From NCBI RefSeq assembly GCF_000621445.1, contig NZ_JHYI01000040.1:1-37945 (forward strand): a stretch of DNA of 37,945 nucleotides, given 5' to 3'. A program made the translations under genes and the position numbers. The DNA comes from Alkalihalobacillus bogoriensis ATCC BAA-922. GTDB taxonomy: Bacteria; Bacillota; Bacilli; Bacillales; Bacillaceae_F. The notes below the pieces were generated by a model. The model ran no database searches. It saw only the letters and a list, made by a program, of their open reading frames with translations, and was not told the DNA's origin. This document shows, in pieces, positions 2,083 through 37,945 of the stretch (position 1 is its first letter; each line of letters starts with the position of its first letter).

Positions 2083-3387
2083 TTGGTTGCTACAATTGCT
2101 CTAACAAAAAATATAAACATCAAAGATGGTTCTCATATTCTTTATTTCTTTAATTCTCCTGAAAAATATATCGAAAACGCTTTGTCATTTATTCTTACAG
2201 CAAAATCTTTAGGACAAGCAGTTGTATTTATAGATAACGCTTTTCACACTAATACAGTTCAACATGCCCTCTTGCAGTATGTGGATGAGGGAGAAATTCA
2301 AGAATGGGTTACTTTCATTAATCAGGAACAGTTCTATGGTACAAATAGTGATTTTCAATTCGAACAAGTGTTAAGGAATTTTAAAAATGTTGTCAAGCCC
2401 TTTTTATCAAAACAAATCCCTGTTCGAGTGTGGGGATATATCGACTGGAAAGAACAGCCTGATATCGAGGAAAAACTGAACTCTTTTGAATGTGAATGTG
2501 ATTTAACGATTAATGAAATGGGTTATATTACCGTGTGCGCCTACAACGGGAGGAAAGTACCAGCTTATATCCAAACGGAAATGATGCGCAGTCATGAATT
2601 TATAATGACCGACACCGACTTGGCGCCTTCCTCACTATATCATAAATCCGATCATTTGATTTATCCATCATTATCCATACAAAATAGTATCGAATCAGAA
2701 ATGGACTTTTATAAGCAGAAACTCGATTTTATCCATGTCGTTGCTCATGAAGTGCGTAACCCGCTGACTGTCATAAAGTCTTTTGCCACGATTATTAAGT
2801 CCGAAATTGATAATCCTGATATTAAAGAAAAACTTAGTGTTATCGAGGACTATTCTATTGCAATTGACCATGAAATTCACCATATTATTCAAACTGAACA
2901 AATGCTAACGATTGATACATTTTGGAAGAAAACAGAAATACCTGTACTACCAACGATTCATGATGTCCTCCATGTCATGGATGTGAAAGCTCGGACTCAG
3001 AATATTAAATTAGATTATACATTACAGATTGATGAAAACGTTATAATTAATGGGAATGCGATGGGCTTTAAGTTAATTATTTCGAACTTGTTAAGCAATG
3101 CCATTAAGTATAGCCATGAAGGAGAATCGATTTATTTACATAGCTATAAAGACTCAGAGTTTCTTTACATTGAAGTCATTGATTACGGGGTAGGCATGTC
3201 CGGTGAGCAGTTAAATCGCTTATTTGAAAAATATCAAAAAACAAATCAGGAAATTGCAGGTCAAGGAATCGGTCTTTATATGGTTCATAAGCTAGTGGAA
3301 CATTTCCATGGCGTTATCCACGTTAGTAGTGAATTAGGTTCAGGAACAAGTATCGTTGTTACATTTCCATATCAGTTAAAATTATAA
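2083..3387 (+). CDS. Orphan sensor histidine kinase with N-terminal MEDS domain
   Basis: The protein has about 434 residues. The N-terminal part (numbering from the upstream ATG, about 17-165) resembles the MEDS sensory domain of DcmR-type regulators (HILYFFNSPEKYIENALSFI, VWGYIDWKEQ). The kinase half has the phospho-acceptor H226 in HVVAHEVRNPLTVIK, N box LLSNAIKYS (340-348), G1 DYGVG (371-375) and G2 GQGIGLYMV (397-405). There is no transmembrane segment, so it should be cytosolic. The ATG at 2071 falls inside an AAAGGATGGTG ribosome binding site; TTG at 2083 sits 6 nt after that site and is the likelier start. No response regulator is adjacent. It is divergent from narK, so a link to nitrate or redox signals is possible but unproven. 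Confidence 0.8.
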   Translation: MVATIALTKNINIKDGSHILYFFNSPEKYIENALSFILTAKSLGQAVVFIDNAFHTNTVQHALLQYVDEGEIQEWVTFINQEQFYGTNSDFQFEQVLRNFKNVVKPFLSKQIPVRVWGYIDWKEQPDIEEKLNSFECECDLTINEMGYITVCAYNGRKVPAYIQTEMMRSHEFIMTDTDLAPSSLYHKSDHLIYPSLSIQNSIESEMDFYKQKLDFIHVVAHEVRNPLTVIKSFATIIKSEIDNPDIKEKLSVIEDYSIAIDHEIHHIIQTEQMLTIDTFWKKTEIPVLPTIHDVLHVMDVKARTQNIKLDYTLQIDENVIINGNAMGFKLIISNLLSNAIKYSHEGESIYLHSYKDSEFLYIEVIDYGVGMSGEQLNRLFEKYQKTNQEIAGQGIGLYMVHKLVEHFHGVIHVSSELGSGTSIVVTFPYQLKL

Positions 3388-3422: not shown

Positions 3423-3603
3423 CGGACATTTATTCCGTTATTCTCGGCAAAACTAAGCCTTTTCCATATTATTCGGACATATGTTCCGCTAGTATACGAA
3501 AAATCGCTAAAATCCAATTAATATTTCTATACTAACTGAACACAGTGACCGCTACCATCTGAAAACTCATCATTTTTACTTTACATAACGGAACATATGT
3601 CCG
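3423..3603. repeat. Intergenic repeat cluster: CGGACAtntGTTCCG units, F-F-(R)-R
   Basis: Forward units lie at 3423-3437 and 3474-3488 (51 bp apart) and a reverse unit at 3589-3603. A degenerate reverse unit, TGAACACAGTGACCG, lies at 3537-3551, 52 bp before the last. The layout reproduces the intact four-unit cluster at 22092-22269. It lies between the convergent kinase (+) and STAS-like (-) genes, and fills this 237-bp intergenic gap. Confidence 0.8.
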
Positions 3604-22091: not shown

Positions 22092-22269
22092 CGGACATTT
22101 GTTCCGTTAAATCTGTGAAATTCTTCTTTTACCGATCGTTTCGGACATCAGTTCCGTTATTCACCTAATCTGACGAGAAAATTCCCTTCACATGATGAAA
22201 TAACGGAACAGATGTCCTTTACAAATTGAAAATACCCTAAAAACCAATAGATAACGGAACAGGTGTCCG
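22092..22269. repeat. Intact F-F-R-R cluster of CGGACAtntGTTCCG units
   Basis: The units are forward at 22092-22106 and 22142-22156, and reverse at 22204-22218 and 22255-22269. Start-to-start steps are 50, 62 and 51 bp. The outer pair is nearly fully complementary over about 22 nt (CTTACGGACA...CCGTTA), as is the inner pair. The spacer sequences do not match those of the other clusters. The cluster lies between the fhs start and the end of the E3 gene, and no gene is present in this stretch. Confidence 0.85.
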
Positions 22270-22295
22270 TAAGCTCTCTAACCAGACCACTAAAT

Positions 22296-22425
22296 AAAGA
22301 AAAACGCGGGAGCGCCTTTTCATTTAAGTGCGGAGCCCTGCCCGCTTTTGAAAGTGAACCCCAAGTGCTCTTCTTGGGGTGAAACCTTCGCTCTTCTAGA
22401 ATAAGCATTCAAAGCTTCACTGCTA
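22296..22425. repeat. Type-A intergenic repeat, uninterrupted copy
   Basis: The head AAAGAAAAACGCGGGAGCG resembles 7067-7085. The tail AGAATAAGCATTCAAAG..CT (22398-22421) differs at one base from the 24-bp tail found twice near 7096 and 7381. Between them is a perfect 8-bp hairpin, ACCCCAAG/CTTGGGGT (22358-22380), and a smaller GCGG..CCGC pair. It is non-coding; the short ORF across it is not credible. Confidence 0.65.
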
Positions 22426-22455
22426 AACCAAAATTTTTATGCTTTCTTATCACTA

Positions 22456-30581: not shown

Positions 30582-31856
30582 TTACTTGTTTAATAGTCCA
30601 AGACTAATGCTTGGAATAAATGTGATAATTAATACATTCACGATGAGCATTAGTAGAAATGGAATAATCGCTTTTACTAATGCTTCATATTTCGTCCCAC
30701 CTACTTGTGCCCCAATAAATAAAGATACACCTACTGGTGGAGTAATGAGACCAATTGAAAGGTTCACAATCATAATGATGCCAAAATGAATCGGATCTAA
30801 ACCAGCACTTACAGCAATTGGCAATAAGATTGGCGTTAATATAATAATGGAAGCGATCGTTTCCATAAACGTACCAACAACGAGTAACAACAGATTAATA
30901 ATTAATAAAATAATAATCGGTGACAAGTCAAAACCTGAAATAAAACTTGCAACAGATTGTGGTACATTTTCTCTCGTTAGGACCATGCCGAATAACCCGG
31001 CTGTTGAAATGATAAATAAAATAACAGATGTTGTCACAACCGAAGACACTAATATTTCTCGTAGTTGTTTTACTTTAATTTGTTTATATACAAACGCGCC
31101 GACAATAAATCCGTATACAACAGCAACAACAGATGCTTCAGTCGGAGTAAAAATTCCACCATAAATTCCACCTAAAATGATCACTGGCATAATTAACGCA
31201 AGAAAAGCTCGTTTAAAAGAATTCCAAATGTTTTTGACATTTGCTTTTTCTAAGTCACTTCCGTAGCCTTTAATCGTCGTGATAATAAAAGCAAGAACCA
31301 TTAAAGAAACACCAATTAATATACCTGGCAAAATCCCTGCAATAAACAATCCACTTACAGACACACCTGCTGAAACACCATACAGGACTAGGGGTACACT
31401 TGGAGGGATAATTATTCCCGTTGTACCAGCAGCAGAATGAATCGCTGTTGCAAAATTACGGTCATACCCTGCTTTTACCATCGACGGAATTAAAATCGCC
31501 CCGATCGCTGCAGTCGTTGCCGCAGCCGAACCCGATAACGCAGCAAAAAACATACAAGAAATAATCGCTACATGAGCAAGCCCGCCTTTCATTTGTCCAA
31601 CGAGGCTTTTGGCAAAATCGACAAGCCGTTCAGATATCCCACCGTGCTCCATTAACTTTCCAGCTAAAATAAAAAATGGTGCAGCCATTAGCGGAAATGA
31701 ATCTAATGAAGCAAATAGTCGTTGTGGCAATGAAATTAATGGGATATCCGCAACTAGGACTAGAAATAACGTGGAGGCTAACCCTAACGCGATGGCGATA
31801 GGGACACTAATAAAAAATAAAACGAGTAAAATAATAAATAGAAGTAAAGTTCCCAT
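30582..31856 (-). CDS. dctM: TRAP transporter large permease DctM
   Basis: This 424-residue membrane protein of the ion-transporter superfamily has about 12 helices in two inverted halves. Conserved segments are SLDSFPLMAAPFFILAGKLMEHGG (discontinuous helix, first half), ISCMFFAALSGSAAATTAAIGAI, GIIIPPSVPLVLYG and, in the second half, MIVNLSIGLITPPVGVSLFIG. It uses the sodium or proton gradient to import an organic acid delivered by DctP. It starts 2 bp after dctQ. The C-terminus has no extension. Confidence 0.92.
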   Translation of the reverse strand: MGTLLLFIILLVLFFISVPIAIALGLASTLFLVLVADIPLISLPQRLFASLDSFPLMAAPFFILAGKLMEHGGISERLVDFAKSLVGQMKGGLAHVAIISCMFFAALSGSAAATTAAIGAILIPSMVKAGYDRNFATAIHSAAGTTGIIIPPSVPLVLYGVSAGVSVSGLFIAGILPGILIGVSLMVLAFIITTIKGYGSDLEKANVKNIWNSFKRAFLALIMPVIILGGIYGGIFTPTEASVVAVVYGFIVGAFVYKQIKVKQLREILVSSVVTTSVILFIISTAGLFGMVLTRENVPQSVASFISGFDLSPIIILLIINLLLLVVGTFMETIASIIILTPILLPIAVSAGLDPIHFGIIMIVNLSIGLITPPVGVSLFIGAQVGGTKYEALVKAIIPFLLMLIVNVLIITFIPSISLGLLNK

Positions 31857-31858
31857 CG

Positions 31859-32347
31859 TTAAAGTCCTTTCTTCTCGAGTTCATTTCCTATAATGGATTG
31901 AATCGTGACATCGATGGCATTAAGCAACATAAGAAACCCACTAATCGGAATGACCATATACACATAGCCCATCGGAAGATTAAGTGCTGCTGATGTTTGG
32001 ACCATTGATCGTTCGGCAAACGCATACCCTTGCACGATCATAAAAAGGAAAAAGGTCGCTCCACAGAGCAAGGCCGCGATTTCAAACACTTTTTGTAACA
32101 TTGGGGGGCACTTCATTTTAAAAAACTCAATGCCAATGTGAGCACCATATTGAAATGCAAAACTCGCACCAAGAAATGTAACCCAAAACATTAAATATCT
32201 TGCGGCTTCCTCAGTCCAAGGAAATGAGGAACCCATGATTTCTCTTGAGATTACTTGAAAAAATATTAAAACGACCATAAGCCCTAACATGGTAGCGCTT
32301 ATGAGCTCAACTACTTTATTGAGATGTGAGACGATAGTTTTGTACAC
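31859..32347 (-). CDS. dctQ: TRAP transporter small permease DctQ
   Basis: This 162-residue protein has four helices and the DctQ signature: ISREIMGSSFPWTEEAARYLMFWVTFLGA (residues about 35-62) and IEFFKMKCP. It forms the membrane complex with DctM. The initiation codon is GTG at 32347. The ribosome site GGAGG is paired with CCTCC directly before the GTG in a small hairpin. A second hairpin separates it from dctP. Confidence 0.88.
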   Translation of the reverse strand: MYKTIVSHLNKVVELISATMLGLMVVLIFFQVISREIMGSSFPWTEEAARYLMFWVTFLGASFAFQYGAHIGIEFFKMKCPPMLQKVFEIAALLCGATFFLFMIVQGYAFAERSMVQTSAALNLPMGYVYMVIPISGFLMLLNAIDVTIQSIIGNELEKKGL

Positions 32348-32360
32348 GGAGGTCTCCTCC
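32348..32360 (-). promoter_or_regulatory. dctQ ribosome binding site inside a hairpin
   Basis: On the minus strand GGAGG-AGA-CCTCC abuts the GTG start codon. The 5-bp stem would hide the Shine-Dalgarno sequence and may lower dctQM translation relative to dctP. Confidence 0.5.
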
Positions 32361-32373
32361 TTTTAGGAAAAGC

Positions 32374-32392
32374 AAAGTGGGAAGCCCACTTT
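32374..32392 (-). terminator. Intra-operon hairpin between dctP and dctQ
   Basis: AAAGTGGG pairs with CCCACTTT around 3 nt, followed by GCTTTTCC on the minus strand. It probably causes partial termination or protects the dctP mRNA, giving more binding protein than permease. Confidence 0.6.
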
Positions 32393-32404
32393 ACTTTTTA
32401 TCTA

Positions 32405-33460
32405 TTATTCACTTGCTCTAATTTTCTCGATAAAGCTTCCGAACTGATCATTAAACTTTTCATACACAGGTTCAACCGCATTTCGGAAAGCTTCAATATC
32501 AATCTCACCTGCTTCCACAATCGTAACCCCTGCTTCAAGTAGCGTTTCTTTTTGCTCTGCTTCCATTTCTTGCGTTAAATTACGTTGAAATGATTTGTAT
32601 TCTTCGCCTTTTTGAACGAATAGCTCTTGAATATCTGTTGGTAATGATTCAAACTTATCTTTATTTAAAACGAGTAATGCTGCAGCATAATACATTCCAA
32701 CTTCACTTAAATGCGCTTGTACTTCATAAATGTTTGTACTTTCTGCTACACCGTATGACGTATCCGTACCATCAACAACACCTTGCTGGAACGAAGTATA
32801 CAATTCTGTAAATGCGATAGGTGTTGGATCTGCTCCTAAAGCGCGATACGTTTCTAGGAAAATATCACTTTCTAACGTTCTCATCTGTAATCCATTTAAA
32901 TCCTCTGGCGTTTTAATTTCTTTTTTATTATTTGTAAAATGTCTCATGCCGTTTTCCCATAATCCTAATCCTTTAAAGCCGTTACTATCAATAGCTGTTA
33001 ATAACTCTTCCCCAACTTCACCGTCTAATGTTTCGTATACATGATTTAAATCTCGGAATAAAAACGGTAAATCAAGAACAGCAACTTCTGGTACAAAATT
33101 AGCAACAGGACCTGATGTTAACAAACTCATATCTAAACTTCCAAGCTGAACTTGTTCTGCTAAATCACGTTCCCCGCCAAGTTGACCATTTCCAAAGATT
33201 TCAAACTGAACTTGTTCATTTGTTTCTTCTGTAATATCTGCTGTCATTTCTTCTAGTGCTATCGTATAAGGATGACCTGGTGGGGCAATATGTCCGATTT
33301 TAATCGTAATTGTATCGCCATTGTTTTCTACAACCTCTGTTTGTGTTTCAGGTTCTGTTGGCTCTGTTGTAGGTCCTCCACTTTCACTGCTTCCACAGGC
33401 AGCTAGCATACTAACCGCTAGTATCCCTAAACCCAAAAGCTTTCCACATGATTTTTTCAC
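32405..33460 (-). CDS. dctP: TRAP transporter substrate-binding protein DctP
   Basis: This 351-residue lipoprotein has signal peptide core LLGLGILAVSMLAAC with lipobox LAAC (Cys22). The DctP fold shows KIGHIAPPGHPYTIALEEM, EIFGNGQLGGERDLAEQVQLGSLDM, GLGLWENGMRHFTNN and LQMRTLESDIF, whose Arg is the usual carboxylate ligand, then PIAFTELYTSFQQGVVDG. It should bind a carboxylate outside the membrane and deliver it to DctQM. The start codon is GTG at 33460 with GGGGGAG 6 nt before it. Adjacent phenylalanine dehydrogenase suggests an aromatic or branched 2-oxo or hydroxy acid; C4-dicarboxylates are an alternative. Confidence 0.92.
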   Translation of the reverse strand: MKKSCGKLLGLGILAVSMLAACGSSESGGPTTEPTEPETQTEVVENNGDTITIKIGHIAPPGHPYTIALEEMTADITEETNEQVQFEIFGNGQLGGERDLAEQVQLGSLDMSLLTSGPVANFVPEVAVLDLPFLFRDLNHVYETLDGEVGEELLTAIDSNGFKGLGLWENGMRHFTNNKKEIKTPEDLNGLQMRTLESDIFLETYRALGADPTPIAFTELYTSFQQGVVDGTDTSYGVAESTNIYEVQAHLSEVGMYYAAALLVLNKDKFESLPTDIQELFVQKGEEYKSFQRNLTQEMEAEQKETLLEAGVTIVEAGEIDIEAFRNAVEPVYEKFNDQFGSFIEKIRASE

Positions 33461-37533: not shown

Positions 37534-37599
37534 CGGACATCTGTTCCGCTATATTCATATTTTTTGCATGTTTTTTCTTCGTTTCGGACATCTGTTCCG
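37534..37599. repeat. Half cluster of CGGACAtntGTTCCG units (F-F)
   Basis: Two identical forward units, CGGACATCTGTTCCG, lie at 37534-37548 and 37585-37599, 51 bp apart, as in the other clusters. No reverse units follow; the next sequence is a C-run (AAGTCCCCCCCAC). Confidence 0.8.
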
Positions 37600-37945
37600 C
37601 TGATATGAACAAAACTGTCAAGTCCCCCCCACTTTTTTACGTTTTTGGGCAACCTTAATAAAAGAACCTTGTTGCTTCTTTTTTTAGATTAACCAATCTG
37701 GTTAGACTATTTCCTTCGACCTTAACAACTCCCACTCAATTGGACGATAGGTTGTCAAGTGCTTTCCTTGACGAGCTATCGTCCAATTGAGATGCTGTAA
37801 AGAAGAGAAGGAAGGGTAAGCACACGGCACGAAGGCAAAATATTTTTAACACCGGTTGGCATTCTGATATACGTGGATTCACACAATTTATAATCCGTCT
37901 AGAGGCCTTTCACTAACTATTTACGTGCATTCACCTTGTAGAAGG
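37600..37945. other. Unassigned terminal region
   Basis: No gene was recognised. It contains the long hairpin at 37735-37791. A minus-strand frame entering from the right edge (…FYKVNARK, stop at 37919-37917) might be the tail of an outside gene, but eight codons prove nothing. Confidence 0.4.
37735..37791. repeat. Long hairpin of unknown role
   Basis: CTCAATTGGACGATAG (37735-37750) pairs perfectly with CTATCGTCCAATTGAG (37776-37791). Inside, after a 3-nt mismatch, GTCAAG pairs with CTTGAC around loop TGCTTTC. There is no T-tract after it on either strand, so it is not a plain terminator. A folded RNA, a recombination site or an IS end are possible. Confidence 0.7.

Follow-up and report, generated by a model that had tools for sequence, protein, structure and literature searches.

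The window (the whole stretch of DNA analysed) is contig NZ_JHYI01000040.1 of Alkalihalobacillus bogoriensis ATCC BAA-922, 37,945 bases long, and belongs to a genome of 5.0 Mb in 51 contigs, here called G000. It carries copies of a 15-bp unit arranged in quartets of two forward (F1, F2) and two reverse (R1, R2) units, of which F1 and R2 are the outer and F2 and R1 the inner ones. The units in the window are:

22092..22106, forward strand: quartet under study, outer unit F1, exact match
22142..22156, forward strand: quartet under study, inner unit F2, one mismatch
22204..22218, reverse strand: quartet under study, inner unit R1, one mismatch
22255..22269, reverse strand: quartet under study, outer unit R2, exact match
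3423..3437, forward strand: second quartet, outer unit F1, one mismatch
3474..3488, forward strand: second quartet, inner unit F2, exact match
3536..3551, reverse strand: second quartet, inner unit R1, recognised by eye 62 bp after F2; it is decayed, carries a 1-nt insertion and is beyond the two-mismatch search
3589..3603, reverse strand: second quartet, outer unit R2, exact match
37534..37548, forward strand: third quartet, outer unit F1, exact match
37585..37599, forward strand: third quartet, inner unit F2, followed by CT and then by an IS1111-type element; F-F-R-R is intact in the ortholog (L207) of the sister species G001

Searching the window with at most two mismatches returned nine units against 0.28 expected, a number reached in 0 of 100 shuffles. 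An earlier note, made from the letters of the window, had placed four units at 22092(+), 22142(+), 22204(-) and 22255(-), with steps of 50, 62 and 51 bp, and all four were recovered by the search. It had also read the same geometry at 3423-3603, in what proves to be a gap between convergent ORFs ending at 3387 and 3625; the two F units and the outer R unit stand there as described (3423, 3474 and 3589; steps of 51 and 115 bp), but the inner R unit is decayed. What was read as a half array at 37534-37599 belongs to a complete design: its G001 ortholog is a full F-F-R-R quartet, and the IS1111-type element stands directly after the second F unit. Another dispersed repeat (GAAGCTT..AGCGAAGG type) adjoins the array under study at 22281-22430 and has many copies in G000 and G001. 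It has a 32-bp piece in common with the family at L107 11204-11697, which is made of TTCTATTRGACA..TGTCTAATAGAA pairs in tandem units and also has many copies in both genomes; a separate dispersed repeat at L064 2934-3230, unlike either of these families, has about 40 close copies in G001. Among 102 copies of other dispersed repeats, pooled from two query families with one query including part of a unit, 10 lie within 60 bp of a unit, and 2.15% of the sequence is that close.

The observation is confirmed and is larger than the earlier note had it. Across G000, 724 units with at most one mismatch were found, compared with 5 for the reversed pattern. Spacing peaks, which had been named beforehand as the mark of a functional array, appear at 50-51 bp for F-F (30 pairs), 61-63 bp for F-R (32) and 50-51 bp for R-R (30) when counted with no geometry filter in 838 kb (two 400-kb stretches and the window), and the same 838 kb has no peaks at spacings one helical turn longer or shorter. 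Most G000 units belong to a dyad-symmetric F-F-R-R quartet of about 180 bp with usual steps of 51-62-51 bp. A search restricted to steps of 49-52, 58-66 and 49-52 bp found 72 quartets in 1.217 Mb, 44 of them with exactly 51-62-51 bp and the remainder off by 1-2 bp at one step at least; when G000, G001 and Rossellomorea marisflavi are pooled, the exact steps occur in 79 of 118 quartets. Two G000 stretches and one from G001, together 1.2 Mb, hold 80 clusters: 57 plain quartets, 1 tandem pair and 22 partial, single or irregular groups.

The unit reads CGGACATnTGTTCCG-y-TA(TTT), preceded by a weak TA, and is an imperfect dyad, in agreement with the near-dyad of the earlier note. Position 8 varies freely and position 9 partly, while at position 10 inner units have G (91% in G000) and outer ones often have A (42% of F1, 24% of R2), a difference that is mirrored across the dyad and is stronger in R. 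marisflavi than in G000. Outer and inner units each have their own consensus, most clearly in R. marisflavi, where the outer unit reads TTTATTCCG and the inner unit has G replacing that A. On the R strand, the consensus next to the palindrome is AAATAR. A weak AT pattern (AAAAA..TTTTT) is all that the spacers keep. Identity between copies is 83-89% for units and 42-45% for spacers, where composition would give 27-29%; for G000 against R. marisflavi it is 83% and 37%, respectively. A likeness to the Bacillus LexA box was set aside because G at unit position 3 is 97-100% conserved.

Of the 118 quartets in the three genomes, 109 are intergenic, 8 overlap short ORFs predicted by a simple ORF caller, and 1 has no neighbour. 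The intergenic quartets lie in 64 tandem, 42 convergent and 3 divergent gaps, compared with 331, 97 and 148, respectively, among control gaps of at least 150 bp, and the median distance from a quartet to a gene 3' end is 71 bp. Quartets prefer the 3' side of genes, a placement that harmless insertion would give too. Two explanations of placement were rejected. Insertion at terminators is not indicated, a terminator-like site preceding the copy at 30 of 123 facing gene ends and being present at 170 of 705 control ends; and an apparent forward excess in the unit lists of G001 and R. marisflavi, which suggested a strand or replichore bias, stems from listing order and cut-off, forward and reverse units standing together in the fetched DNA of both.

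Within the order Bacillales, a 21-mer searched with one mismatch matched 25 of 397 genomes and 16 of 135 genera (reversed control, 2 hits overall); 13 of these genomes, from 10 genera, have at least ten hits and the other 12 have 1-9. A draw of 398 genomes from the phylum gave a match in G000 itself only. The carrier is often a single species among many of its genus: R. marisflavi has 149 hits and its 15 drawn congeners 0, and G001 and G000 have 446 and 334, respectively, and their congener G002 has 0. Among named genomes, the exact three-unit pattern matched Gracilibacillus lacisalsi and R. marisflavi. At 17 loci from nine other genera (Gracilibacillus included), a full quartet is present in 15, from seven genera, with steps of 50-51, 61-63 and 50-51 bp, and three units were detected at the fetched loci of two genera (g76 and g99). 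Full quartets of the same geometry are thus found in Rossellomorea, Gracilibacillus and six further genera, and the distribution of the family over genera is patchy. In R. marisflavi quartets also form tandem arrays, and one convergent gap that holds a four-quartet array there is shorter and has no unit in three congeners.

G001 is syntenic with G000 and about 93% identical to it in the compared region. Of the 72 G000 quartets, 20 were aligned to G001 and 8 stand in gaps of a different length there; for the remaining 44 at least one flank was unmapped, most of them lying on contigs with no fetched G001 counterpart. In a clean set of 15 of the 20 aligned orthologs (spacer and loop divergence <20%), fixed unit positions changed at 21/708 sites (3.0%) and spacer and loop at 138/1391 (9.9%; Fisher p=1.6e-9), the unit divergence being somewhat lowered because copies were picked by their match to the G000 unit, at a lax cut-off of 10 mismatches of 52. 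In the same set the variable unit positions (7-9) changed at 21/177 sites, the TATTT part at 12/354 and the flanks at 152/2183. All 20 aligned orthologs gave 37/945 for fixed unit positions and 290/1863 for spacer and loop, and a separate set of 19 pairs, counted over all 15 unit positions, gave 76/1137 for units, 314/1796 for spacer and loop and 578/3571 for flanks. Since the fixed unit positions are slower than spacer and loop, the units, more than the spacers, have been held back after the species split. These substitution rates support selection on the units; gene conversion between copies could be an alternative keeper of their likeness. As counter-evidence, a blast-based count of 22 quartets gave divergences of 6.4% for units (all positions), 11.8% for spacers, 11.9% for the loop and 5.7% for other intergenic DNA, which changes no faster than whole units. 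The spacers diverge about twice as fast as this other intergenic DNA.

Selection on distance, which the earlier note had proposed, fares less well. Spacing is kept across genera with dissimilar spacers, but suppression of indels inside the element is doubtful, being weak in the aligned set (8 per 1391 spacer and loop sites vs 27 per 2183 flank sites, p=0.056) and absent in the blast-based count (per 100 sites, 1.03 in spacers, 1.73 in the loop, 1.24 in other intergenic DNA and 2.60 in flanking intergenic DNA). The constraint on units, the position behind genes and the depletion between divergent genes, as described for REPs, would also suit a BIME-like site that lineages gain and lose and that is bound by a conserved protein of the host, such as gyrase or some other nucleoid protein. 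We regard this as unlikely, given that most relatives are without the repeat while presumably having the same core proteins, and that 43 units judged by eye are spread along the G001 chromosome with no ori/ter pattern.

The layout permits two nested helices, outer F with outer R and inner F with inner R, and the copies lie 3' of genes, both of which would agree with a structured RNA in 3' untranslated regions. About 80% of nested positions do pair because the units share a consensus, and the nested pairing put forward in the earlier note finds little support in covariation: over 19 orthologous pairs the changes at nested positions are uncompensated, with 98 one-sided, 6 two-sided and 1 compensatory. 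Among 18 unit comparisons made in each of the three genomes, two results in G000 favour pairing: the inner units F2 and R1 resemble each other slightly more than shuffled ones do (p 0.03-0.05), and the outer units F1 and R2 agree at the y position (p=0.001). Both lack significance in G001, and in R. marisflavi these signals are absent or reversed (F2-R1 reversed). In none of the three genomes are the spacers complementary, and Rfam has no match above the gathering score in the window. An RNA function of this kind is in our view very improbable, and we take the element to act as DNA. The distance of about five helical turns that the earlier note saw between units fits all four sites near 10.25 bp per turn (R=0.994, compared with 0.66 at 10.5), but that value was fitted afterwards.

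The third quartet of the window is interrupted by an insertion sequence with the following features:

37602..37945, reverse strand: end of the IS1111-type element, with the 3-bp extension GAT and part of the non-coding guide-RNA region; the contig ends inside it
37605-37617: IS1111-type subterminal repeat ATGAACAAAACTG
37917..37925, reverse strand: predicted IS1111-type guide segment CTATTTACG, which matches the DNA just after the unit

Passages of one paper (PMC11187229) define the IS1111 group by a DEDD transposase, a long non-coding region downstream of tnp and subterminal inverted repeats of 11-13 bp, and give its extensions as 7 and 3 bp. The end in the window, unit included, is 98.9% identical over 363 bp to a complete copy of 1740 bp in G001 (L204 4041-5780), where the step without the IS is 51 bp. 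That copy has a transposase matching DEDD_Tnp_IS110 and Transposase_20, 13-bp subterminal repeats, extensions of 3 and 7 bp, and a 494-bp non-coding region downstream of the transposase gene; judged on it, the element at 37602 belongs to the IS1111 group. A query from the end of the window found 4 IS copies (3 in G000, 1 in G001), all after TTCCGCT of a unit. In the non-coding region, GTTCCGCT and CGTAAATAG match the unit edge and follow each other as IS1111 guides are described to do, and the match lengths of both predicted guides were reached in 3/2000 shuffles for the window target and 61/1000 for the target of the G001 copy. The units are a natural target of the IS1111-type element, whose class has, according to passages of the same paper, guide RNAs that were redirected in the laboratory (PMC11187229). 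A link between this transposase and carrier status was rejected: at E<=1e-60 it matched G001 alone among 16 carriers, the G000 copies being cut by contig ends, and it is also present, at 70% identity, in one non-carrier (G340, L209).

Other insertion sequences enter quartets as well. Of three copies of a Mutator-type IS (Transposase_mut) in the searched stretches, two lie within quartets; this IS256-like element of 1381 bp stands in quartet spacers at G001:C1 1790423-1791803 and 1958346-1959726, and its three copies are identical, with 8-bp target duplications by eye. An IS3-type element has entered the F1 unit of a G001 quartet (L112 and L113, about 31623-33075), and its transposase (rve, HTH_21), which lies between two G001 quartets and was considered as a partner, was rejected on that position. 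REPs are likewise IS targets, according to part of a paper on them (PMC1525189).

Signs of movement by the quartet itself were sought at its edges and between the two species. For 59 quartets, target-site duplications of k=4-8 showed no significant excess, and the 3-bp quartet edges matched at 79/177 letters vs 69.4 when shuffled, a value reached by 76/2000 shuffles. At the places of 22 G000 quartets in one 400-kb stretch, G001 has a quartet in 19, one split by an IS in 2 and one shorter by 51 bp in 1. In the other direction, 7 of 26 G001 quartets have no full quartet at the corresponding G000 place; the aligned ones among these 7 are mostly partial, rearranged or deleted copies, and one leaves no trace between diverged flanks. 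No clean filled and empty pair was seen between G000 and G001, the differences being internal deletions, IS insertions and rearrangements. At G000:C2 259976 and 336904 the species differ by 51 bp at quartets, as recombination between neighbouring units would give.

A vehicle or partner was sought more widely. Stretches of G000 (0.8 Mb), G001 (0.8 Mb) and R. marisflavi (0.4 Mb) showed no autonomous element with the same ends, and in the classified stretches FF and RR are parted by no gene except an inserted IS. In 12 regions inspected by eye, no candidate partner gene recurred next to tandem arrays or in the DNA that separates close copies. Viral contigs had no exact match, plasmids had no match to one quartet, and phages gave two chance-level pieces only.

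The literature offers several families for comparison. Passages on REP, BIME and REPIN sequences describe extragenic imperfect palindromes that occur in many copies, form inverted groups at regular spacing and lie mostly downstream of genes (PMC2817692, PMC3733652). The conceptual likeness to REP/BIME drawn in the earlier note holds, the quartet repeat being high-copy, extragenic, mostly 3' of genes and an IS target. Unlike REPs, it has a unit of 15-21 bp, a fixed four-site geometry and free spacers. The palindrome, the short conserved head, the copy number and the tandem arrays would also agree with a genuine REP/REPIN family that a RAYT (Y1 transposase) mobilises, yet the head is AAATAR and not GTAG. 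Y1_Tnp is present in 27/30 genomes tested, in carriers (12/14) and others (15/16) alike, and G. lacisalsi (G272), with 46 hits of the 21-mer, has no Y1_Tnp match. No unit with <=2 mismatches stands within about 2 kb of any of 20 Y1 loci (21 of the 41 Y1 matches, 12 carrier genomes), so no RAYT adjoins the examined sites. By these tests the repeat lies outside the REP/RAYT group, though it works like a REP or BIME as a palindromic extragenic site, and mobilisation by RAYT is the explanation we hold to be extremely improbable. Several Y1 loci of carriers have other repeats beside them, and RAYT-like genes at L184, L185, L187 and L195 adjoin other palindromic repeats (GTGTCAGACACCCC; AAGTGCCTGACCCCCAC), possibly the actual REP families of these hosts.

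CGTC-tagged palindromic repeats are described in part of PMC3733652 as REP-like and without a dedicated transposase; the quartet unit differs in its consensus, which has no CGTC tag, and in having four sites rather than singles or dimers. The repeats bcr1-bcr3 of the Bacillus cereus group, to go by portions of two papers (PMC3446304, PMC2267715), are MITE-like, dispersed, intergenic and of similar size; they belong to another host group and are compared here by description only. The quartet resembles a MITE in its inverted outer units at the ends and its length of about 180 bp (<300 bp), and 8 of 118 copies overlap a short ORF. The ends of the transposons Mu, Tn7 and Tn552 carry mirrored inner and outer transposase sites at set distances. 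The quartet is like them in this respect and differs from them in having no gene between its ends and no clear target duplication. In line with the earlier note, which knew of no described family, the literal unit spellings are absent from open-licence PMC texts. Among the matches listed there for repeats of Rossellomorea or Bacillaceae nothing was relevant, and no paper in the same collection joins REPIN, RAYT and purifying selection. We file the repeat under dispersed palindromic repeats and MITE-like elements, its distinguishing mark being constraint on four sites at a fixed distance.

A MITE with no host function would account for much of this. Its two inner and outer pairs of transposase sites would mark one end each of a mini-transposon, the units would have been kept through repeated rounds of transposition only, and the present copies would be inert. 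The dyad layout, the distinct outer and inner sites, the patchy spread, the tandem arrays and the array missing from congeners at one gap all agree with it. Inert copies should decay evenly, yet orthologous fixed unit positions change about three times slower than spacers, and the lack of a clear target duplication and, in the classified stretches, of any gene-parted FF and RR other than by an IS also count against such an origin. We consider inert copies possible, if on the whole rather unlikely.

The reading we prefer, to which we give close to an even chance, is that of a non-autonomous mobile repeat of about 180 bp whose units are sites for a putative dimeric DNA-binding protein, held at a fixed distance and under selection. 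It would join the copy number, the geometry, the patchy spread, the preference for the 3' side of genes and the slower change of units than of spacers between two species. The repeat does not pass the tests for the best-known repeat family and so points to a putative DNA-binding partner. In the layout outer-inner-(loop)-inner-outer, each unit is an imperfect dyad of the kind that a dimeric DNA-binding protein would read. With a helical repeat of about 10.25 bp, steps of 51, 62 and 51 bp would bring all four sites to the same face of the DNA, and therefore a protein on each could close the element into a compact complex. A transposase or recombinase may have spread the repeat, and the array, once bound, may now be of use to the host, for instance by acting behind genes as a topological or boundary site. 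The interpretation given in the earlier note stands in part: the near-dyad of the units and the likeness to REP/BIME are upheld, and there is little support for nested RNA pairing.

For extragenic repeats, the usual explanations are a resident transposase and RNA hairpins. The quartet combines a constant four-site geometry, poorly conserved spacers, constraint between orthologs and no link found to a RAYT, and whether it is a passenger or a selected site is directly testable, with the unit as a clear bait sequence for finding the partner. More tentatively, and with the chances rather against it, horizontally spreading site-arrays might nucleate a four-site nucleoprotein complex with the putative partner and be kept as part of the architecture of the chromosome or of transcription units. 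If so, the quartet would be a mobile, self-spacing structural element, neither gene nor RNA, that single species of many Bacillales genera have acquired.
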